Shown here: one piece after another, positions 29,657-58,512 of the stretch
Layout of the letters: each line of letters starts with the position of its first letter
Numbering within the stretch: the stretch's first letter is position 1
Assembly: GCA_020846975.1 (NCBI GenBank)
Contig: JADLCX010000089.1
Coordinates: forward strand, 62,001 to 126,000
Length of the DNA stretch: 64,000 nt
Reading direction: 5' to 3'
Source of the DNA: Phycisphaerales bacterium
Lineage (GTDB): Bacteria > Planctomycetota > Phycisphaerae > Phycisphaerales > UBA1924
Notes under the pieces: model-generated
Told to the model about the DNA's origin: nothing
What the model saw: the letters and a program-made list of their open reading frames with translations, nothing else
The model's database searches: none
Program-made: the position numbers and the translations under genes

Positions 29657-30880
29657 ATGCCGTCCGAAACTGATGCTCAGATGCGTGCCTTGGAGGCATT
29701 CGTCGTCGAGAACGAAGATTTGCTGGCGCTTGAGGAGCGAATCGGACGGTTCAACATCTTCGATGCACTCGGCATCGTCCGCGCAGAGATACGACACTCG
29801 AACTTCTTGGCGTGGCTGCTGGACCCGGCAGAAAGCCATGGACAGGGTGACTTGTTCCTCAAGTCGGTGCTGATGGACTTGGCGAGACACGCTCGCAACC
29901 AGGGGTTCAATCCTCCGTTCAGCCCTGTCCATCTCGACGGCTCCGACATGGGCAGCGTCGAGATTCACCGGGAGTGGAAGAACATCGACCTGCTGATCCT
30001 GAGCCACGAACCTCCGTTCGTCATCGCGATCGAGAACAAGGTGGACTCGGGCGAGCACTCCAATCAACTCCAGCGATACGAAGAGACCGTAGCGGCTGAG
30101 TTTCCGGCGCGGCCTGCGTTGCTCGTATTCCTGACCCCAGACGGGGCCGAAGCCAGCGACGACGACTGGGTCTCGTATTCATATGCCGACCTCCACCGGG
30201 TGCTGACCCGCGTCAAGCGAACAAACTCGGGCGGCGTCGGTCCCGATGTCTCGGCGTTCCTTGACCACTACCTTCGACTGATCGAGAGCAGGATGATGGA
30301 TGACCCCCAGATCGACGAGCTGTGCCGACGCATCTACAAGAATCACCGCGCGGCAATCGACCTGATCATCGAACGAGTCGGCGCGACATCGAATCCTGTG
30401 ATGGCCGCCTTGATCGACCAACTGAACGAAAGTCCAGACAGATGGGTCATCCTGAAGTCGAGACCAAACGAGATCCGGTTCTTGCCGAAGTCTTGGCTTG
30501 AGGTTCTCCCACCTATTCGCAAGACGCGAATGAAGGACCCGAATGCACGTCGTGGCTGGCTAGTGGGATACTGGACTTGCCGGGATGACTGCCTTGAGTT
30601 CTCGATTTGGGTGCTGAAAACTGATGATCAGCACATCCGTCAGCAGGTGGTCGAACGCTTGACCTCAAACCCCGAGGAGTTTGGACTGGCTTTTCCCAAG
30701 CGACGTGCGCGGTGGATTCACGATTGGACGCAACTGCGTTGCGAGCGCGTTGCTGAGTGGACTCCGGACGCGGAGCCCGAGCTAGATGCAGTGTTGGCGG
30801 AAGTCAGGTCAAAGATGGACAAGTTTGAAGCGAGTGCTCTGCGAATTCGAGACGCGATCAAGATGTCGCTCAACACCTGA
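29657..30880 (+). CDS. PD-(D/E)XK nuclease superfamily protein (PDDEXK_4-like)
   Basis: 407 residues. The nuclease core lies in the first half: AEIRHSNFLAWLLDP (about 43-57), then WKNIDLLIL with Asp111, followed by AIENKVDSGE with Glu126 and Lys128, and a conserved Gln/Tyr (NQLQRYEE) just after. This order D...ExK...Q-Y is that of PD-(D/E)XK proteins of the PDDEXK_4 type, often found singly in variable genome regions and sometimes linked to phage defence. The C-terminal half is helical and unassigned. GC content and codon use are visibly lower than in the flanking genes, suggesting acquisition. No methyltransferase or other defence gene is adjacent. Confidence 0.8.
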   Translation: MPSETDAQMRALEAFVVENEDLLALEERIGRFNIFDALGIVRAEIRHSNFLAWLLDPAESHGQGDLFLKSVLMDLARHARNQGFNPPFSPVHLDGSDMGSVEIHREWKNIDLLILSHEPPFVIAIENKVDSGEHSNQLQRYEETVAAEFPARPALLVFLTPDGAEASDDDWVSYSYADLHRVLTRVKRTNSGGVGPDVSAFLDHYLRLIESRMMDDPQIDELCRRIYKNHRAAIDLIIERVGATSNPVMAALIDQLNESPDRWVILKSRPNEIRFLPKSWLEVLPPIRKTRMKDPNARRGWLVGYWTCRDDCLEFSIWVLKTDDQHIRQQVVERLTSNPEEFGLAFPKRRARWIHDWTQLRCERVAEWTPDAEPELDAVLAEVRSKMDKFEASALRIRDAIKMSLNT

Positions 30881-30909
30881 ACGAATTGGTCACCGCCATG
30901 CCACGAACG

Positions 30910-30937
30910 AAAAAACCCCGAGCTCGCGCCCGGGGCC
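30910..30937 (-). terminator. Intrinsic terminator of atpD
   Basis: On the minus strand a GGCCCCGGGC...GCTCGGGG hairpin is followed by six T residues. It lies 40 bases beyond the atpD stop and, read on the plus strand, could also end the nuclease transcript. Confidence 0.8.
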
Positions 30938-30974
30938 TTTGATTTCATGGCGTGACCGCCGCTTGCGGCCCGGC

Positions 30975-32438
<1,464 letters not shown>

Positions 32439-48241: not shown

Positions 48242-49855
48242 ATGATCAAGCGGAGTCAGCAACGCGGGGCGTGCGTGGTCGTGGCGTTGGTTTTGGCGTG
48301 TCCGAGCCTCGGCGGGTGGGCGCCGAGCGTCGCTCGGGCGGAGGCTCTGGGGTGGCTCGATCCGGAAGACGATGTCACGATCATCCTCGATGCGGACGCG
48401 GGCGCGAACAAGCGGACCAAGGCCGTCGATCGGCTGTGGGAAGCCGCGGAAGCCGGGCGATACGACCGTGCGGCCGCGCGTGAGACGCTGAAGACCGTCA
48501 TCTGGAAGAGCAGCGCGCCGTCTCCTCTGAGGCAGGCGGTTCTGGCCAAGCTTCTTTCGGATGCGAGCCCCGGCGCGATCGCCGATACCCGTAAACTGCT
48601 GCGCCTGCGCATGCCGACCGAATCACAATGGCCGGTGATCGACGACATCTGCAGGGCGATCACGGCGAGAGCGGGCGATCAGGCGTGGCGAGAGATGACC
48701 GGTGCGCTGGTCAGGTCGTATGCGCGGCGGGTGCCGACACCGCCGGATGCGGACCGGCCCGAGCGGGGCGCGCTGCTCGCGCTCTATCCGGGCGAATCGA
48801 TCGAGCAGATCGCGTTCAAGGTCTACCTGAAACCGGCCGGCGAGATCAACGGCGGTGAACTGTCGGGACAAGCGCCGGAGCTCGTCGAAAAGCAGCGGGA
48901 CGCGGCGTGGGAACTTCTGGGGAGGCTGGATCCGAACGGAGGTGTTCGTGCGTCCATGATGGCCGCCGCGCCGCAGGACGATCCCGCTCTGCGCCCGATC
49001 GCTCGGTGCGCTCAGGAACTGAAGGTCGTGCCCGTGACCGGGTCCGAGTTGTCGTGGGCCAAACGGTTGATCGAGGGAGCGGATGCGGGAGGCGAGGGCG
49101 CGGCGTGGTGGTCGGAATCGAGCGCGGCGGTTGGCAAACTGAACGGCGACCAGCTCAAGGGCCTGCAACTCCGCCACATCGAGCCGGTGCGATGGGCTGC
49201 CAAGCACAAGCCCGATTGGCTCGCGACCGACCGGGACACCCTGCTCTCCGAACTCGAACGGCGGCTGGATGGCCGCCGCGTGTGGCGCAAGACCGCCGAC
49301 ATGGGCGACAGCGGCCGGCTGAGCAAAGAGTCATTGAAGGACTGGCGCGATGCGCTGGTGTGGGGTGATGCGCTGGCGATCCTGGTGATTGATGATGCCC
49401 TGCGGAGCGCGGGCGTCGCGAGCGAGCTGTTCGCGCAGGCCGCCGCCGACCGGGCCGACTCGAGCACGGAGTATGGAGGCGGCCTGTGGGCGGCCGAGCC
49501 CGTGCCGGGCGGTTCGACGAACCCGAAATGGACGGTGAAGGACAACTCGTTCGTGGTCAAGGGCTTCAATCCGCGGCCGGGCCAGCGCGTGAATGACCGC
49601 ACCTTCGTGGCGCCGGAGGCGCTGTTCACCGCCGATGGCGCAGGCGGGCGGGTCCTGTGCCATTATCACTTCCATGTTCAGACCGACAACAACGCCGACT
49701 ACGCCGGGCCGGGCGTGGGCGACATGGAGTACGCCGCCACGCACGGCCGGGCCTGCCTGGTGCTGACGAGCGTCAAGAAGGGCGTGCTGAACGCTGACTA
49801 CTACCAGCGGAACGGCGTGACCATCGATCTTGGAGAGCTCAAGGAAAGCCGATAA
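48242..49855 (+). CDS. Exported protein of unknown function
   Basis: 537 residues from the ATG at 48242. A signal peptide (hydrophobic core ACVVVALVLACPSLGG, cleavage near ARA|EA at ~33) is followed by a helical, Trp-containing middle with many Leu/Arg. The C-terminal ~65 residues are the best-conserved-looking part: RVLCHYHFHVQTDNNADYAG, MEYAATHGRACLVLTSV, then NADYYQRNGVTIDLGEL. The HYHFH cluster could bind metal or contribute to an active site. I do not recognise the family. 63 bases before the M48 protease gene, same strand. Confidence 0.7.
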   Translation: MIKRSQQRGACVVVALVLACPSLGGWAPSVARAEALGWLDPEDDVTIILDADAGANKRTKAVDRLWEAAEAGRYDRAAARETLKTVIWKSSAPSPLRQAVLAKLLSDASPGAIADTRKLLRLRMPTESQWPVIDDICRAITARAGDQAWREMTGALVRSYARRVPTPPDADRPERGALLALYPGESIEQIAFKVYLKPAGEINGGELSGQAPELVEKQRDAAWELLGRLDPNGGVRASMMAAAPQDDPALRPIARCAQELKVVPVTGSELSWAKRLIEGADAGGEGAAWWSESSAAVGKLNGDQLKGLQLRHIEPVRWAAKHKPDWLATDRDTLLSELERRLDGRRVWRKTADMGDSGRLSKESLKDWRDALVWGDALAILVIDDALRSAGVASELFAQAAADRADSSTEYGGGLWAAEPVPGGSTNPKWTVKDNSFVVKGFNPRPGQRVNDRTFVAPEALFTADGAGGRVLCHYHFHVQTDNNADYAGPGVGDMEYAATHGRACLVLTSVKKGVLNADYYQRNGVTIDLGELKESR

Positions 49856-49918
49856 AGGATTCGCGCTCCGCGCGAGGATCTTCGCACGAAGCGGACCCGG
49901 ACCCCAGCGAAGGATCGC

Positions 49919-51640
49919 TTGCTCCACCTGCTGATCATCGCCCTGTTCATCGTGATCGCGCTGCACGACTCGGTGGCGGGCGGCGGTCGCTTCGGCGTGG
50001 CGCCCGAGACAGCGCCCGCGACCACCGAGGTGTGGGTGGTCACGCTCGGGCCGATGCTCACCCTGGCGCTCGGAACGGTCGTCTCGATCAAGGTTCTCGC
50101 GCGACGCGTGGCCGAACGGGGTTCGATGCGTGCTCTCGCGGCGGCGGACCGGGTGCTGGCGATCTCCCGCGTCTCGGCCTTGCTGCTCCACGCCGGCAAT
50201 GTGCTCGCGCTGGGGTGGATGGGCGCGGTGCGGGGCGTGGTTGGCGATGTGGTGGCGATCGACGAGCTCCTGGCCATCGCGCCGCCGCTGCTGGTCGTCA
50301 TCGTGGGTTGGTGGGCATACTTCCCGATCGAGGCTCGAGTCCGGGAATCGACGATGTACCGGCTTCTCGAGACCGGGCAGCCGCAGTACCCGATGGTCTC
50401 GCGCGGGCGGTTTGTGATGTTGCAGCTGAGGCACCAGATCCTGCTCACGCTCGTGCCGCTGTCGATGATCGCGATCTGGAGCGAGGGGCTGGAAAGGGGG
50501 CTCTCGCGGATGGCGCGAGCCGACCCGGAGCGAGGGCCCGCGGGCCGCATCGGCGCCTGGCTTGCCGATGACGCGAACCTGACTGCCGCGCAGACGCTCC
50601 TGCAACTGGCGGGCGTCGTGATCATCTTCGCGCTCAGCCCGCTGGTCCTGAGGCGCGTGTGGGACACGGTACGGCTGACTTCCGGCCCGTTGCACGACCG
50701 GCTGATGAGGCTCTGTCGCGCCAGCGGCGTCAGCATCCGCGGCCTGCTGGTGTGGCGAACGCACGGCACGATGCTCAACGGCGCGGTCATCGGGCTGGTC
50801 GGGCCGCTGCGGTACATCCTGCTGACGGATGCGCTGCTCGATCAGCTGCCTGAGCGGCAGATCGAAGCGGTCATGGCCCATGAGATCGGACACGCCCGGC
50901 ACGCGCACATGCCGTGGCTGGCGGGGAGCCTGCTCGCCGGCTTCGGCGGTGTCGCGCTGCTGGTCGGAACCGCGATCTGGGGCGGGCTGCTCGTGATCGA
51001 CGCGGCCGGTCACGGAGCGTTCGCGGAGTGGCTCGCGATGTCTTCGCTGCTGACCGGGGGAATGGCCGTGTGCTCGTTCGCGGGGGCGCTCACCGTCTTC
51101 GGGTTTGTCAGCCGACGGTTTGAGTGGCAGGCGGATGCGTTTGCCGTGCAGCAGCTCAGCCGAGCCATGGAGGCCGAGACCGGCGCGCGGAGCGTAACAA
51201 CGTCGGCCATGCTCAACTCTCCGGGCATCATTTCGACCGTCGATCCGCGAGCATGCGCCTCAGTGATTTCCGCGGACGCGAACCTGGACATGTCGCTCGA
51301 ATCGCCTGCGGCAACCGTCCGCCCCGAAGCGGTCGCGGCGATGGTCGGGGCGCTCGACAGCGTGGCGACGCTCAACCACCTGTCTCGTGCGCGGTTCACG
51401 TGGCGTCACGGCTCGATCGCCTACCGGCAGCGAAGGCTGCTCGCGATGAGCGGGCGACCGCTGGGACCGCAGAGGATCGACGGCATCTCACGCTGGCTCA
51501 AGCGCGCGGTTGCGATCGGACTGGTTCTCCTCGTGACCATGTTCGTGCTTGAGAGCACGGTGCTTCGGGGCGGTGATGGGCGTGATGATCCGAGCCTCGA
51601 CTCCACGCGGCAACACGCGCCGGAACGGGGGCGGAGATGA
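49919..51640 (+). CDS. M48-family integral membrane metalloprotease
   Basis: 573 residues from a TTG with AAGGAT eight bases upstream. At least four hydrophobic segments in the first 200 residues and two more after the active site place it in the inner membrane. The zinc motif is MAHEIGHARHAH (HEIGH at ~320), followed by a Glu ligand region (RRFEWQADAFAVQQL, ~400) as in HtpX/Ste24-type M48 peptidases. Such proteases act in membrane quality control. Overlaps dapF by four bases. Confidence 0.87.
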   Translation: MLHLLIIALFIVIALHDSVAGGGRFGVAPETAPATTEVWVVTLGPMLTLALGTVVSIKVLARRVAERGSMRALAAADRVLAISRVSALLLHAGNVLALGWMGAVRGVVGDVVAIDELLAIAPPLLVVIVGWWAYFPIEARVRESTMYRLLETGQPQYPMVSRGRFVMLQLRHQILLTLVPLSMIAIWSEGLERGLSRMARADPERGPAGRIGAWLADDANLTAAQTLLQLAGVVIIFALSPLVLRRVWDTVRLTSGPLHDRLMRLCRASGVSIRGLLVWRTHGTMLNGAVIGLVGPLRYILLTDALLDQLPERQIEAVMAHEIGHARHAHMPWLAGSLLAGFGGVALLVGTAIWGGLLVIDAAGHGAFAEWLAMSSLLTGGMAVCSFAGALTVFGFVSRRFEWQADAFAVQQLSRAMEAETGARSVTTSAMLNSPGIISTVDPRACASVISADANLDMSLESPAATVRPEAVAAMVGALDSVATLNHLSRARFTWRHGSIAYRQRRLLAMSGRPLGPQRIDGISRWLKRAVAIGLVLLVTMFVLESTVLRGGDGRDDPSLDSTRQHAPERGRR

Positions 51641-52563
51641 CGATCCGCTTTGTGAAGATGCACGGGTGCGGCAACGACTACGTGTACATCGACGCGATCA
51701 ACCAGCCGCGGGTCGCCGCGTTGATCGGGTCGGCCGGGTGGCGTCGCCTGGTCGTTCGCATGAGCGACCGGCACAAGGGGATCGGGTCTGACGGCGTCAT
51801 CGCCCTGTGCAGACCGACGCCGGCGGGCGCGAGGCAAGGCGCGTGCGTGCGGATGCGGATGTTCAACGCGGATGCGAGTGAAGGGAAGATGTGCGGGAAC
51901 GGGGTCCGGTGCGTGGCGAAGTTCGCGCACGACCGGCTGGGGATCAAGGCCAGACCGATCAGAGTGCAGACGGGCGCTGGCGTGCTGGCGATCGACTACC
52001 GGCGCTCGAACGGCCGGCTGGCGGTGGCCACGGCGGATATGGGCAGGCCGGGCGTCAGGCCGATCGACGTGGGCGTGCGTCTCTCGAAACTCTCGTTCTC
52101 AGGTGTGGATCACCACTCGGGGATCGAGTGCGGACCGGAGCACGAAGTGTGGATCGGCACGTTCGTATCGATGGGCAATCCTCATTTGGTGCTGTTCAGC
52201 GATGGGAACCCCGGCCGCTTCGACTCCATACGCGCGTTGGACGCGTTTGATCTGGCCAGGTTCGGACCCGCCATCGAACGCCACCCGGCGTTCCGGGATC
52301 GGATCAACATCCACTTCGTGGTCAGGCAGGCTCGGCGCGAGGCGACCATGCGGACCTGGGAGCGAGGCAGCGGGATCACCCAAGCCTGCGGTACCGGGGC
52401 GTGCGCGGTGCTGGTCGCGGGGGTGTTGACGGGACGCCTGGGGCGATCAGCGCTGCTCCACCTTCCCGGAGGAGACCTGCGGATCAGGTGGGATGACCGG
52501 AGCGGTCACGTGCTGATGACCGGACCGGCGGAGGATGTGTTTGAGGGTGAGTATCGGGCTTGA
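51637..52563 (+). CDS. dapF: Diaminopimelate epimerase
   Basis: Interconverts LL- and meso-diaminopimelate for lysine and peptidoglycan. 308 residues: FVKMHGCGNDYVYID opening, the first catalytic Cys in EGKMCGNGVRC and the second in TQACGTGACA, with MGNPHLVLF and GSGIT at the expected places. Starts inside the M48 stop (ATGA). An insertion of about 15 residues sits near 60. Followed after 33 bases by an M20 hydrolase. Confidence 0.94.
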   Translation: MTIRFVKMHGCGNDYVYIDAINQPRVAALIGSAGWRRLVVRMSDRHKGIGSDGVIALCRPTPAGARQGACVRMRMFNADASEGKMCGNGVRCVAKFAHDRLGIKARPIRVQTGAGVLAIDYRRSNGRLAVATADMGRPGVRPIDVGVRLSKLSFSGVDHHSGIECGPEHEVWIGTFVSMGNPHLVLFSDGNPGRFDSIRALDAFDLARFGPAIERHPAFRDRINIHFVVRQARREATMRTWERGSGITQACGTGACAVLVAGVLTGRLGRSALLHLPGGDLRIRWDDRSGHVLMTGPAEDVFEGEYRA

Positions 52564-52596: not shown

Positions 52597-53880
52597 ATGG
52601 GACTGAGCGAGCATGAACGGACGGTGTGCGATGCGATCTCGCGGCGACGGGATGCGCTGCTCGATGACCTGCGATCGCACGTCGAGACCCCCACCGGCGG
52701 GGGCAACACCGATGGATTGAACCGAACGCGCGAACTGCTCACGCGGCGTGCCGCGAGGCTCGGTGCGACGGTCGAGCACGTACGGGGCCAGAGGCGGCCG
52801 CAGTGGCTGTTCGGGAGTCCGGGCTACGGCGACCGGGGCGCACGCTCAACACCGGATTCGCCGCCGACCGCGGTGTGCCGGCGCGAGCTCGGCTTGAAGG
52901 GCGTTCCGCTGCTGATCTCCGGCCATCTCGACACGGTGCACGATCCCTCGGGGCCGTTCCAGCAACTCACACTCACTCCCGATGGCGTTCGCGGCATCGG
53001 CCCGGGCTGCGTGGACATGAAAGGCGGGCTGGTCATCACGCTGGCCGCGCTCGAGTGCCTTGACGAGTGCGGCATCAAGCTGCCGTGGACGCTGCTTCTC
53101 AACAGCGATGAGGAAACGGGCAGCTACCACAGCGAGCGGACGATCTTTGCCGAGGCCTCGCGGGTGGCGACGCTGGGGGGGGTCGGGATCGCGGTGGAAC
53201 CCGGCGCGAATGGCTCCGAGGGGGCGCTGGTGGTTGCCCGGGCCGGAAGCGGGCAGTTCTTCATCGAGGTGACGGGAAAAGCGGCTCACGTCGGGCGCGA
53301 CTTCGCCTCCGGAATCTCCGCGGTCAACGCGCTCGCGGAGCTGATCCTCAAGATCGCCGCGCTGAGCGAACCCGCACGCGATCTCATCGTCAACATCGGC
53401 CCGATCGAGGGCGGAACGGCCACCAACGCGGTCCCGGATCGTGCGCGGGGCTGGGGGAACGTGCGGTTCCCCGACCAGGCCGCGGCCGGGGCGATCGAGG
53501 CCCGGCTGCGGACGCTCGTCTCCGAGGCGCAGACCGGCGCGATCCGAACCCGACTGGAGAGCAGTTTCATCCGCGCCGCCAAACCGCTGACGCCGGACAC
53601 GCAACGGCTCGCCGACATGGCCCGCGCGGCGAGCCTCGACCTCGGCCGCGAACTGCCGTTCACGAAGACCGCCGGCGTCTGCGACGGCAACGTGATGCAG
53701 GCGGCGGGCCTGCCCACGCTCGACACGCTGGGTGTGCGCGGCGGGGGCCTGCACACGCCGGAGGAGTGGATCGAGATTCCCAGCCTTGTCGATCGGTGCC
53801 AACTGCTCGCGGTGTTTATGATCAGGGCGGCGGGAAGCTCGGAACTCGGACCTCTGAACTCGGAACGGAAAGGCGGGTAG
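52597..53880 (+). CDS. M20-family zinc hydrolase (ArgE/DapE/CPG2-like)
   Basis: 427 residues. Co-catalytic zinc motif: SGHLDTVHDP (His and Asp), GCVDMKGGL (bridging Asp), DEETGS (catalytic and ligand Glu), and a C-terminal GGGLHTPEEW His. The dimerisation domain lies between (~200-320). Closest in look to glutamate carboxypeptidase and N-acyl amino acid deacylases. Three bases separate it from the aminotransferase of the succinyl-transfer group, so an N-succinyl amino acid (for example succinylglutamate) is an attractive substrate, by context only. Confidence 0.88.
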   Translation: MGLSEHERTVCDAISRRRDALLDDLRSHVETPTGGGNTDGLNRTRELLTRRAARLGATVEHVRGQRRPQWLFGSPGYGDRGARSTPDSPPTAVCRRELGLKGVPLLISGHLDTVHDPSGPFQQLTLTPDGVRGIGPGCVDMKGGLVITLAALECLDECGIKLPWTLLLNSDEETGSYHSERTIFAEASRVATLGGVGIAVEPGANGSEGALVVARAGSGQFFIEVTGKAAHVGRDFASGISAVNALAELILKIAALSEPARDLIVNIGPIEGGTATNAVPDRARGWGNVRFPDQAAAGAIEARLRTLVSEAQTGAIRTRLESSFIRAAKPLTPDTQRLADMARAASLDLGRELPFTKTAGVCDGNVMQAAGLPTLDTLGVRGGGLHTPEEWIEIPSLVDRCQLLAVFMIRAAGSSELGPLNSERKGG

Positions 53881-53883
53881 GCG

Positions 53884-55377
53884 ATGGCGACGACGATGCA
53901 GAAGCAGGGTGGGCAGGCGGGATCGCAGACCGCTGCGGCGACGACCGTTGGCGAGCGGCTCGCCGCGAGCCCGGCCTTGAACGCGGCCGTGGACGCGATC
54001 GTGTCCGAGGTCCGCCGTCACTCGGCGCTCATCACGGATGTCCAGCCCCCCCGCGCCGCGCTCAAGGAGACCTACGACAACCTCATGGCCCGCGCGGTCG
54101 AGGTCCGGGGCAAGCCCCTGCTCTACCCGTACCTGGGGTCGGGGATCGGCAACGGCGCGCTGGTCGAACTCGCCGACGGGAGCGTGAAGTGGGACATGAT
54201 CACGGGGATCGGCGTCCACTTCTTCGGGCACAGCGATGCGGACCTGACGGCCGCGGGCGTGCGCGGGGCGATGGCCGATACGCTGCAGCACGGCAACCTG
54301 ATGAGCAACACCGAGGCGTACCGCTTCGGCGAGGTCCTGCTGGCGGAGGCGAAGAAGAACAGCAGGTTGAAGTACGCCTACTGCGCGACCTCGGGCTGCA
54401 TGGCCAACGAGAACGCGATCAAGGTCTGCTACCAGAAGGCGGCCCTAACCGGCGGAGTCGCCCCGCGCGTGATCGCGTTCAAGGACTGTTTCATGGGCCG
54501 CAGCGTGACCATGTGCCAGATCGGCGACACGGCCGCGTACCGGCAAGGGGTGCCCCTGAGCACGCTCGTGGACTACATGCCGTTCTACGACCCGGCGGTC
54601 GCGGAGCGCATGGGCGGGAGCGCGAAGTTCATCGACATGGCCGCGGCGAGACTCCGCGAGTACATCGAGCGCTACCCGAAGCAGCACGCCTGCTTCATCT
54701 TCGAGCTGGTCCAGGGTGAGGGCGGGTTCAACACCGCGCCGCGCGACTACTTCGTCGAGCTGATGAAGATGTGCAAGGAGCACAAGATCGCGGTGTGGGA
54801 CGACGAGATCCAGACCTTCGGCCGCACCGAGCGGATGTTCGCGTACGAGCTGATGGATGTCGGCGAGTTTGTCGATGTCTTCTGCATCGGCAAGATGACG
54901 CAGGTCTGCGCCACGCTCTTCACCGAGGAGTTCAACCCGCAGGCGGGCCTCCTGAGCGGCACGTTCACCAGCAGCACGCCGGCGTTCACCATCGGCACGC
55001 GCGTGCTCGAGCGGCTGCGCGATGGGAACTACTACGGCAAGAACGGCTCGATCGCCCGCCACCACGCCGCGTTCACAAAGCAGGTGCGGGCCCTCGCGGC
55101 CAAGCACTCGGCCTGGTTCCCCAAGAGCACGGCGTACACCGACATCGTCGGCGGCAACGGCGGCATGATGCGGTTCACACCCTTCGGCGGCGTGAAGGAG
55201 AAGGTCACCAGGCTCTGCAAGCACCTGTTTGATGAGGGCGTGATCGCGTTCTACTGCGGCCACGGGCCGTACCACATCCGCATGTTGCCCCCGCTCGGGG
55301 TGATGAACGAGGGCGACTGGCCGCGGGTCTTTGCGTGCATCGAGAAAGGCATGGCCAGGCTGGCCGCGGAGGCCTGA
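53884..55377 (+). CDS. Class III PLP aminotransferase (AstC/ArgD-like)
   Basis: 497 residues, about 90 longer than AstC owing mainly to an N-terminal extension. DMITGIGVHFFGHSDADL and ATSGCMANENAIK are the cofactor-phosphate regions; FELVQGEGGFN and VWDDEIQTFGRT include the pyridine-nitrogen Asp. The Schiff-base Lys is Lys337 in CIGKMTQVC. Substrate by context would be N2-succinylornithine (or acetylornithine), transferring to 2-oxoglutarate. Tightly follows the M20 hydrolase; astA follows after 279 bases. Confidence 0.88.
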   Translation: MATTMQKQGGQAGSQTAAATTVGERLAASPALNAAVDAIVSEVRRHSALITDVQPPRAALKETYDNLMARAVEVRGKPLLYPYLGSGIGNGALVELADGSVKWDMITGIGVHFFGHSDADLTAAGVRGAMADTLQHGNLMSNTEAYRFGEVLLAEAKKNSRLKYAYCATSGCMANENAIKVCYQKAALTGGVAPRVIAFKDCFMGRSVTMCQIGDTAAYRQGVPLSTLVDYMPFYDPAVAERMGGSAKFIDMAAARLREYIERYPKQHACFIFELVQGEGGFNTAPRDYFVELMKMCKEHKIAVWDDEIQTFGRTERMFAYELMDVGEFVDVFCIGKMTQVCATLFTEEFNPQAGLLSGTFTSSTPAFTIGTRVLERLRDGNYYGKNGSIARHHAAFTKQVRALAAKHSAWFPKSTAYTDIVGGNGGMMRFTPFGGVKEKVTRLCKHLFDEGVIAFYCGHGPYHIRMLPPLGVMNEGDWPRVFACIEKGMARLAAEA

Positions 55378-55489
55378 GCAAGGCCCGCGCTCGCGATCGG
55401 CGCAGCGCCCACGGGCGTGCTGCGCGGTTGATCGGTCGTGCCGCGCCGACACTTGACCGTGGGGCACGGTTTTCTGGTCGTGCGACCGC

Positions 55490-55570
55490 GCGATTGGCCC
55501 GTGCAGCGCGGGTTCATGGGCATGAAACGCGGATTCATGCCCATGTCGCCGCGTTTCACGCCCACAGATT
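55490..55570. repeat. Degenerate ~20-base tandem repeat with internal palindrome
   Basis: Successive ~20-base units with the form CGCG-ATTGGCCCGTG, CGGG-TTCATGGGCATG, CGGA-TTCATGCCCATG and CGCG-TTTCACGCCCAC. Two neighbouring units form a perfect 12-base inverted repeat (CATGGGCATGAA at 55515-55526 and TTCATGCCCATG at 55534-55545). Lies between the aminotransferase and astA genes. Confidence 0.5.
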
Positions 55571-55656
55571 CCGAACACACGCCCGGGTTGGCGGCGCGAA
55601 CGGCCGGAATCATCCGACCATTCGGCTACCATGCAGCCCAACCAGGAGTCCCGACC

Positions 55657-56850
55657 GTGTTCCTGATGCGCCGAGCCAAGCCCGAGGATGTGCCCACGCT
55701 GCTCAAGCTGGCCAAGCTCGTCCACTTCATCAACCTGCCCGCGGACAAGGACATCATCGCCGAGAAGGTGCAGTGGAGCCGGCAGTGCTTTCTGGAAGTC
55801 GCCGAGCGCGTGCGGCCGAACGGCACGCTCAGGCCCGCGGCCATCCGCGGCAGGGCCAGGGCCTCGACCAAGGGCGATGGTCACACCTCGCTGCTCGACC
55901 GCTCGCGGCTGTTCATGTTCGTGCTCGAAGACACCGAGTCGGGCGGGGTGCTCGGGACCAGCCAGATCATCACCAGCATGGGCGGGGTCGGGCACCCGAA
56001 CCTGAGCTTCGAGCTCTCGCGCAAGGAGATGTTCTCGACCAGCCTGCAGATGGGCACCACGCACATGGTGGCGAAGCTGCGGCTGGATGAATCCGGCCCG
56101 ACGGAGATCGGCGGGCTGATCCTCCAGCCCAGCTACCGCGGCCACAAGGCCCGCCTCGGACGCTTCCTCAGCCTGGTGCGCTTCCACTTCATGGGCCTGT
56201 TCCGGCCGATGGTCGCCGACCACATCCTCGCCGAGATGATGGGCCCGATCACGCCCGACGGGCAGAACACGCTGTGGGAGTACCTCGGCCGCCGGTTCAT
56301 CAACCTCACCTACATCGAGGCCGACCGCTTCTGCCAGCACAGCAAGGAGTTCATGCTGAGCCTGCTGCCGCGCGAGGAGATCTACCTGACGCTGCTGCCG
56401 CCCGAGGCGCGGCGGATCATCGCGCAGGTCGGCCCCGAGACCGAGCCCGCCAAGAAGCTGCTCGAGAAACTCGGCTTCCAGTACCGCAACCGCATCGACC
56501 CCTTCGACGGCGGCCCGAACCTCGAGGCCGCGACCGACGACATCTCGCTGGTGAAGGCGACGCGGCGGCTCACGCTGGGCGCTGCGCTGCCCGCGGGCGA
56601 GGATCCGCCCGCCGGCCGCGGCGAGAACTCGATCTTCAGCGCGCTCGACGAGGATGGCGAGTTCCGGGCCATCGAGACGGTCGGCGCGATGGAGGGCGGG
56701 CCGACCGTCCGCCTGCCGCGCGCCGCGCTCGATCTGCTCCAGGTCCGCGCGGGGAGCATCATCGGGTGCACACCGCTCGCCCCGTCATCGCCGCCGACCG
56801 CCGCCAGGAGCAAGGCCGGCCGCGGTTCATCGAAGTCTCGCGCACGTTGA
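55657..56850 (+). CDS. astA: Arginine (or ornithine) N-succinyltransferase
   Basis: 397 residues from a GTG at 55657, chosen for GGAG eight bases upstream; ATG at 55666 is the alternative. Transfers succinyl from succinyl-CoA to the alpha-amino group of arginine or ornithine. AstA features: MRRAKPEDVPTLLKLAKLVH start, LEDTESGGVLGTSQI, GGLILQPSYRGHKARLGRFL, FINLTYIEADRFC and LGFQYRNRIDPFDGGPNLEA (each quoted in part). The C-terminal ~60 residues are an extra tail. Part of the run with the aminotransferase and the aldehyde dehydrogenase. Confidence 0.9.
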   Translation: MFLMRRAKPEDVPTLLKLAKLVHFINLPADKDIIAEKVQWSRQCFLEVAERVRPNGTLRPAAIRGRARASTKGDGHTSLLDRSRLFMFVLEDTESGGVLGTSQIITSMGGVGHPNLSFELSRKEMFSTSLQMGTTHMVAKLRLDESGPTEIGGLILQPSYRGHKARLGRFLSLVRFHFMGLFRPMVADHILAEMMGPITPDGQNTLWEYLGRRFINLTYIEADRFCQHSKEFMLSLLPREEIYLTLLPPEARRIIAQVGPETEPAKKLLEKLGFQYRNRIDPFDGGPNLEAATDDISLVKATRRLTLGAALPAGEDPPAGRGENSIFSALDEDGEFRAIETVGAMEGGPTVRLPRAALDLLQVRAGSIIGCTPLAPSSPPTAARSKAGRGSSKSRAR

Positions 56851-56886
56851 GACTGCCCGCGCACGGCCCGCGGCGTAGACTCAGGC

Positions 56887-58512
56887 ATGGCCACGCTCAC
56901 CGCGCCGTTCAAGCACCCCTCGCTCTCGCACGCGCCGAGCGACCTCGTCGGCGGCGAGTGGGTCGCCCTCCCGGGCAAGTCCGGCGCGGCGAGCGTTGAA
57001 TCGCACAATCCCGCCAGGCCCGAGCAGGTCGTCTGGACCGGGCACCCCCGCGCCGAGCACGTCGATGCGGCCGTGCGCGCCGCCCGCGCGGCCTTCCCCG
57101 CGTGGGCGCGGCTCGGCAAGGAGCGGCGCTTCGCCGTGCTCCGCCGCTTCGCCGAGCTGTGCAGGCAGAAGGCGCCCGCGATGGCGGATCTCATCTGCGA
57201 TGAGACCGGCAAGGTGATGTGGGAGGCCAGGGGCGAAGCGGCCGCGCTGGCCGCGAAGGTGGACATCACGCTCGACCTCTCCCCCACCGGCGGGCTCAGG
57301 CGCGTGGACGGCTTCGAGTTCGACATGGGGGCCGCGGGCGGCGGAGGCCAGAAGGTCGGCCGCGCGTGGTTCAGGCCGCACGGGGTCATGGCCGTGGTCG
57401 GGCCGTTCAACTTCCCCGCGCACCTGCCCAACGGCCACATCATCCCCGCGCTCGCGATGGGCAACACGGTGGTCTTCAAGCCCAGCGACAGGGCGCCGGG
57501 CGTGGGGCAGATGCTCGTCGAACTCCTCGCCGAAGCGATGGAGAAGGAAGGGGCTCCGAACAAGGGTAAAGGGGTCATCAACCTCGTGCAGGGCGGCGGC
57601 GACATCGCCTCCGCGCTCACCTCGCACGAAGGGATCGACGGCATCCTCTTCACCGGCTCGTGGCCCGTCGGCCGGCGCATCCTGCACGCCAACATCGACC
57701 GCCCCAGCCGCATCGTCGCGCTGGAGATGGGCGGGAACAACCCGGTCATCGTCATGGAGGATGCCGACCTGCGGCAGGCGGCGATCGAGATCATCCGCTG
57801 CGCGTTCAACACCACCGGCCAGCGGTGCACGTGCACGCGGCGGGTGATCGTGCACGCGCGGATCGCCGACCGGCTGATCGAGGTCCTCGAGACCGCCGCG
57901 GCCGCGCTGGCCTTCGGCGACCCGCGCGGGGGGGCTATGGGAAAGACTCCGACGTTCGCCGGTCCGATCATCAGCGAGGCCGCCCGCAAGGCCGTGCTTG
58001 ATTTCCAGAAGGCCGCCTTCGAGGGCGGCGCGGAGCCGATCCTCGAGTCCGAGCCGATCGCCATCCGCGGCGGCGGCTACTTCCTCTCACCCTCGATCAT
58101 CAAGGTTGAGAAGTTCACCGCCGACGATGTTGAACCCTCAAAGCGCCCGGGCTGCGACCGCGAGGTCTTCGGCCCGCTCCTGCGTATCGCCGAAGTCCGC
58201 GATCTCGACGAGGCGATCGCGCAGGCCAACGCCACGCGCTACGGCCTGGCGGCCTCGATCTTCACGCGCGATGTCGCCGCCGCCGAGCGCTTCATGTTCG
58301 AGTGCCGCGCCGGCTGCCTCAACATCAACACCGGCACCGCGGGCGCCAGCAGCAAGCTCCCCTTCGGCGGCATCGGCCTCAGCGGCAACCACCGGCCCGC
58401 GGGCTCGTTCAGCCTCGACTCGTGCGCCTACCCGGTCGCGGGCATGATCGAGCGCGGCGAATCGGCGCAGGTCGCCGAGGGCATGAACTGGGACGAGCAG
58501 TGGGTGCGGTGA
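56887..58512 (+). CDS. astD: Aldehyde dehydrogenase, probable succinylglutamate-semialdehyde dehydrogenase
   Basis: 541 residues, about 50 longer than usual AstD. GPFNFPAHLPNGHIIPALAM (NAD-binding and the FPxHLPNGH block typical of AstD), then GNTVVFKPSD, Glu280 in ALEMGGNNPV and catalytic Cys314 in TGQRCTCTRR. The AGCLNINTGTAGASSKLPFG end also fits. Oxidises N-succinylglutamate semialdehyde to N-succinylglutamate with NAD+. 36 bases after astA. Confidence 0.9.
   Translation: MATLTAPFKHPSLSHAPSDLVGGEWVALPGKSGAASVESHNPARPEQVVWTGHPRAEHVDAAVRAARAAFPAWARLGKERRFAVLRRFAELCRQKAPAMADLICDETGKVMWEARGEAAALAAKVDITLDLSPTGGLRRVDGFEFDMGAAGGGGQKVGRAWFRPHGVMAVVGPFNFPAHLPNGHIIPALAMGNTVVFKPSDRAPGVGQMLVELLAEAMEKEGAPNKGKGVINLVQGGGDIASALTSHEGIDGILFTGSWPVGRRILHANIDRPSRIVALEMGGNNPVIVMEDADLRQAAIEIIRCAFNTTGQRCTCTRRVIVHARIADRLIEVLETAAAALAFGDPRGGAMGKTPTFAGPIISEAARKAVLDFQKAAFEGGAEPILESEPIAIRGGGYFLSPSIIKVEKFTADDVEPSKRPGCDREVFGPLLRIAEVRDLDEAIAQANATRYGLAASIFTRDVAAAERFMFECRAGCLNINTGTAGASSKLPFGGIGLSGNHRPAGSFSLDSCAYPVAGMIERGESAQVAEGMNWDEQWVR

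Follow-up and report, generated by a model that had tools for sequence, protein, structure and literature searches.

We have found what appears to be a new variant of the AST arginine-degrading pathway in uncultured planctomycetes, in which an M20 metallohydrolase and an arginase-superfamily ureohydrolase appear to stand in for AstE and AstB, respectively. Most of what is known of the AST route comes from proteobacteria, where its five enzymes are fixed. In the planctomycete variant the route may work like the AST pathway, while ortholog-level membership failed for three of the five enzymes (AstB, AstC and AstE). Taken as a whole, the reading of the module as an AST route with both the M20 and the ureohydrolase exchanged into it is probable. 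The fuller proposal, that Phycisphaerales have an N2-succinylarginine ureohydrolase and a carboxypeptidase G2-like desuccinylase and carry out three of the five AST steps by non-orthologous enzymes, is in our judgment evenly balanced. Gene content, synteny, co-occurrence and mutual exclusion were computed; every catalytic activity is one that we infer.

Results

The window locus

The window (the whole 64,000-nucleotide stretch of DNA analyzed) carries the M20, class III aminotransferase (AT3), AstA and AstD-like genes on one strand, with the first two separated by 3 bases (Table 1). Coordinates and family matches thus bear out the arrangement described in an earlier, sequence-only reading of this DNA. 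The AstA frame is open from position 55438, with the best start being a GTG at 55657 that has AGGAG ahead of it.

Table 1. Genes of the planctomycete AST-like module and its upstream neighbor
Gene	Position	Strand	Matches and proposed role
dapF (diaminopimelate epimerase)	51637..52563	+	TIGR00652, 242 bits, over cut-off; directly 5' of M20
M20 metallohydrolase	52597..53880	+	Pfam M20 and M20 dimerisation domains (PF01546 and PF07687); proposed N-succinylglutamate desuccinylase (AstE analogue)
AT3 (class III aminotransferase)	53884..55377	+	PF00202, 137 bits; proposed N-succinylornithine transaminase (AstC analogue)
AstA, arginine/ornithine N-succinyltransferase, divergent	55657..56850	+	PF04958, 269 bits
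AstD-like N-succinylglutamate 5-semialdehyde dehydrogenase	56887..58512	+	Aldedh; TIGR03240, 438 bits; PRK09457, 450 bits
Ureohydrolase (arginase superfamily)	G000:C22:64493-65542 (window genome, other contig)		PF00491, 259 bits

The order (dapF-)M20-AT3-AstA-AstD was found again in relatives at approximately 45-60% identity, and M20-AT3-AstA-AstD also occurs in distant relatives (loci L032 and L043). Because this order is kept in near and distant relatives alike, the gene arrangement is not due to chance. The adjacency of dapF and M20 is kept across the order, even where AT3-AstA-AstD sit elsewhere, and dapF is probably a conserved upstream neighbor rather than a pathway member. A block at 48242-52563, comprising an unknown 537-aa protein (no Pfam match), an M48 peptidase and dapF, remains intact together with M20 in relatives even where the AST genes now lie elsewhere. 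In scans for promoters and terminators nothing rose above chance, and a plasmid search with the window DNA gave no match. Elsewhere in the window (29681-32414), a PD-(D/E)XK nuclease gene (29681-30880) adjoins a gene (30975-32414) encoding a 479-aa ATP-synthase alpha/beta-type protein with a V/A-type C-terminal domain.

The AstA match to PF04958 lies well over the cut-off of 29.4, and that to TIGR03244 (175 bits) is under the equivalog cut-off of 391; identity to E. coli AstA is 34.8%. At the position of E. coli His229 the window AstA and those of most order members have Gly, and a few have Asn or Ser; in Acinetobacter the equivalent residue was among the two mutated as predicted catalytic residues (PMC12375414). 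Since this Gly is common to AstB-bearing and AstB-less members of the order, it does not explain the loss of AstB. AstA proteins of the window's family also carry a variable insert at about residue 50 of the family model. One genome, G078, has two AstA copies (L042 and L043), and another, G119, encodes a second, very divergent AstA-like protein with 54 bits to PF04958 (L057; G119:C14:31673-32740).

AT3 falls far under the cut-offs of the models for AstC (TIGR03246, 72 bits against 610) and L-lysine 6-transaminase (LAT, 71 against 521), and scores 112 bits against ArgD-type models. It shares 27.9% identity with E. coli AstC over 269 aa, with the PLP lysine column kept, and in some members of the class it is not a neighbor of AstA. 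For the AstD-like protein TIGR03240 is by far the best equivalog, under its cut-off of 579; the best PDB chains are those of AstD (5u0l, 3ju8 and 4kna), and identity to E. coli AstD is 39%.

Absence of AstB and AstE

AstB and a canonical AstE are missing from the window, as the sequence-only reading had noted, and the search of the remaining genome that it had proposed as a check detected neither in this Phycisphaerales assembly of 102 contigs and 95.8% completeness. For AstB there were no PF04996 matches in the window genome, and the E. coli and Caulobacter controls were detected. For AstE there was no match to PF04952, PF24827 or TIGR03242 anywhere in the window genome. The comparison was then widened to 120 genomes of the same class, with AstA present in 25 and absent from 95. 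None of these 120 genomes, including the AstA genomes tested, had an AstE that reached the cut-off. Matches of 99-148 bits to PF24827 in some relatives were rejected as AstE, as none reached the TIGR03242 cut-off and several were in AstA-less genomes.

Of the 25 AstA genomes, 19 encode full-length AstB, inside or outside the AST cluster, so that arginine would be the usual substrate of the module. In G040, G062, G072, G085 and G109 AstB sits 3' of AstD. The six genomes with AstA and no AstB are the window genome, four members of its family (G090, G096, G113 and G119) and one further member of its order (G107). An assembly gap is an unlikely cause of the missing AstB, because these five relatives also lack it and one of them (G090) is 98% complete in 8 contigs.

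The M20 hydrolase as a probable replacement for AstE

With orthology set at an E-value of at most 1e-46, 22 of the 25 AstA genomes had an M20 ortholog, against none of the 95 without AstA (Fisher p 4e-21, uncorrected for kinship). The gene adjoins AstA but not dapF in six genomes (G014, G085, G109, G062, G008 and G078). Profile scores were 317 bits for PRK07338 and 172 bits for glutamate carboxypeptidase, while the DapE models TIGR01246 and TIGR01900 gave 39-68 bits against cut-offs of 304-362. The best PDB relative by sequence is carboxypeptidase G2 (92 bits). A structural model of the M20 protein (pLDDT 90.5) aligned with carboxypeptidase G2 over 384 residues (Z 44.7, rmsd 3.3, 24% identity), compared with a Z of 35.9 for the DapE fold. 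The metal-binding and catalytic residues H110, D112, D140, E172, E173, E201 and H386 do not vary among 21 M20 orthologs, and the dinuclear-metal motifs (HxD, D, EE, E and H) are held in common with carboxypeptidase G2.

Carboxypeptidase G2 frees glutamate from N-acylglutamates, and the last AST step calls for an N-acyl-glutamate-releasing enzyme. Since carboxypeptidase G2 is the nearest relative of M20 in both sequence and fold, M20 probably takes the place of AstE. The two enzymes share 24% identity, and carboxypeptidase G2 cleaves folate-type glutamates, where the planctomycete M20 is predicted to act on N-succinylglutamate. The suggestion in the sequence-only reading that an M20 enzyme substitutes for AstE thus gains from the association with AstA, the linkage to AstA away from dapF, the likeness to carboxypeptidase G2 and the lack of an AstE over cut-off in any AstA genome tested; the substitution is well supported by comparative genomics, with the activity itself predicted.

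Three AstA genomes (G040, G054 and G072) have no M20 ortholog, so another desuccinylase must exist there and M20 is not the sole solution. These genomes (loci L037, L036 and L044, respectively) encode both AstA and AstB, and in none of them did a protein qualify as AstE at the cut-off. A search for an alternative AstE near their AST genes returned only an ion channel, a NIF3-like protein, a class IV aminotransferase and familyless proteins.

The ureohydrolase as a proposed replacement for AstB

Genomes were searched for arginase-superfamily proteins and then with the window genome's own ureohydrolase as the query. Scores of 382-778 bits came from precisely those six genomes that have AstA and lack AstB; in the other 114 (19 with both AstA and AstB, 95 without AstA) the best match was 109 bits. 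Since all six AstB-less genomes carry this specific ureohydrolase, a guanidino-hydrolysing step is still present. Within the 25 AstA genomes the exchange of AstB for ureohydrolase has a Fisher p of 6e-6; on the AstA+AstD tree it amounts to only two changes, too few for a kinship-corrected significance.

In the window genome the ureohydrolase gene is unlinked to the module and has sugar-oxidoreductase-like genes as neighbors. Among 80 named ureohydrolase loci, nearly all titled Phycisphaerales or Planctomycetota, about 32 have AstA or AstD within the covered DNA and about 48 show no AST linkage within it. The ureohydrolase lies 3' of AstD on the same strand in 31 of the 32 linked loci, a position that AstB occupies in other relatives, and the full order (dapF-)M20-AT3-AstA-AstD-ureohydrolase occurs in 23 named loci. 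Two bins titled Leptolyngbya sp. PLA1 and Cyanobacteria bacterium CYA (L145 and L147) carry the planctomycete ureohydrolase at 61-64% identity and are probably mislabelled or contaminated.

All six ureohydrolases retain the metal-ligand motifs GGDHS, DSHxD and DxDxxDP. The top PDB relatives of the ureohydrolase are guanidino-acid enzymes, namely 3-guanidinopropionase (212 bits), proclavaminate amidinohydrolase (200) and guanidinobutyrase (198), ahead of agmatinase chains (185 bits and lower) and plant arginase (114). These three enzymes work outside AST pathways, and HAS and GxKGPLN motifs are specific to the planctomycete clade. NCBIfam labels the protein agmatinase: five of the six are over the TIGR01230 cut-off of 174.3, with the window genome's at 183.8 and the remaining one at 169.8. 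The co-occurrence pattern argues against agmatine as the substrate.

In human arginase, Asp183 contacts the substrate alpha-amino group; when this position was placed in the ureohydrolases by eye, it fell in a conserved GIKGPLN/GVKGPLN segment without an Asp. No AstA column was found to separate 6 AstB relatives from 32 ureohydrolase-group sequences, so the AstA substrate is probably unchanged between the two groups. The PDB relatives, the missing Asp and the unchanged AstA together favor N2-succinylarginine over free arginine, without settling the matter. The ureohydrolase most likely replaces AstB by acting on N2-succinylarginine. Its substrate is the least certain step of the scheme; we somewhat favor N2-succinylarginine, with free arginine a possible but less likely choice.

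Discussion

In the proposed pathway, AstA would succinylate arginine, and the ureohydrolase, in place of AstB, would convert N2-succinylarginine to N2-succinylornithine and urea. AT3 would then pass the delta-amino group to 2-oxoglutarate or another acceptor (the AstC role), AstD would oxidize the semialdehyde to N-succinylglutamate, and M20 would cleave the latter to glutamate and succinate (the AstE role). Several findings count against this scheme: the swap amounts to only two changes on the tree, the ureohydrolase bears an agmatinase label and is unlinked in the window genome and in about 48 of the 80 named loci within the covered DNA, three AstA genomes are without M20, AstA has Gly at His229, and M20 stays by dapF after the AST genes have moved.

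The ureohydrolase could instead be a true arginase that converts arginine to ornithine and urea, after which AstA would act on ornithine and AT3, AstD and M20 would finish the route. The same co-occurrence and linkage evidence speaks for this reading. AstA enzymes can accept ornithine, as Acinetobacter AstO, an ornithine-dedicated AstA paralogue, illustrates (PMC12375414), and plant arginases are also agmatinase-like in sequence (PMC7370999). We nevertheless regard a true arginase as unlikely: the guanidino-acid hydrolases are nearest, with plant arginase far weaker at 114 versus 212 bits, the GIKGPLN/GVKGPLN segment has no Asp at the eye-aligned position of the Asp183 contact, and AstA is unchanged between the AstB and ureohydrolase groups. 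An enzyme acting on free arginine would leave AstA to succinylate ornithine, a sub-case of the entry at ornithine, without need of AstB, that the sequence-only reading had proposed. Entry at ornithine is not the best reading, as 19 of the AstA genomes carry AstB and the other six the ureohydrolase, and that half of the earlier idea is probably incomplete. In its strict form, with ornithine made by the cell or imported and the ureohydrolase an unrelated agmatinase, it would draw on the acceptance of ornithine by known AstA systems (PMC12375414) and on the NCBIfam name, which five of the six proteins earn by TIGR01230 score. It is improbable, because among the 120 genomes this ureohydrolase clade is confined to those with AstA, swaps with AstB one-for-one and lies within the AST cluster of many relatives.

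Two further readings would take the module, or its M20 enzyme, out of arginine catabolism. The conserved adjacency to dapF in the order might indicate that M20 is a DapE-type desuccinylase of lysine/diaminopimelate (DAP) synthesis; class III aminotransferases include N-succinyl-DAP transaminases, and a DapL search of the window genome with one model gave 104 bits, under the cut-off. However, M20 is missing from all 95 AstA-less class members, which presumably make DAP too, and stands beside AstA without dapF in the six genomes named above. Its DapE scores of 39-68 bits fall well short of those for PRK07338 and glutamate carboxypeptidase, and its fold is far closer to carboxypeptidase G2, making a DapE role very improbable. 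A module that breaks down lysine via N-succinylated intermediates, with AT3 resembling lysine 6-transaminase, would account for the weak match of AT3 to that model (71 bits) and for its GKxTQVC motif, a motif of LAT enzymes. We consider this very improbable, given that ArgD-type models score higher (112 bits) and that 19 of the 25 genomes pair the module with the arginine-specific AstB.

The preferred scheme, an AST route with substituted M20 and ureohydrolase, can be set beside several known systems. The astCADBE system of E. coli has AstA and an AstD-like dehydrogenase in common with it, and the same N-succinylated intermediates are proposed here. It differs in having AstB and AstE, both absent from the window genome, which has M20 and an arginase-superfamily hydrolase instead; in an AstC to which AT3 has only 27.9% identity, with AT3 far under AstC cut-offs; and in a second step that yields ammonia and CO2, whereas the planctomycete route would be expected to release urea. 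The ornithine locus astNOP of Acinetobacter (PMC12375414) likewise gathers part of the AST set, AstB not included, at a single locus. However, a full astCADBE operon is present in Acinetobacter as well, astNOP is without a dehydrogenase and desuccinylase, and no ureohydrolase is described. Arginine synthesis in Bacteroidetes (PMC7311316) also uses succinylated intermediates, with a candidate N-succinylcitrulline desuccinylase that is distant kin of succinyl-DAP desuccinylase, but that route is biosynthetic and is without AstA or AstD. No earlier account of either replacement, M20 or ureohydrolase, was found in the open-access papers searched, which is not proof of absence.

Conclusions

Of the five AST enzymes, a single phylum seems to have retained AstA and AstD and exchanged the other three. 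The scheme offers a likely function for a large M20 clade and for a clade that annotation tools would wrongly call 'agmatinase'; it also leads one to expect that uncultured planctomycetes use arginine and release urea.
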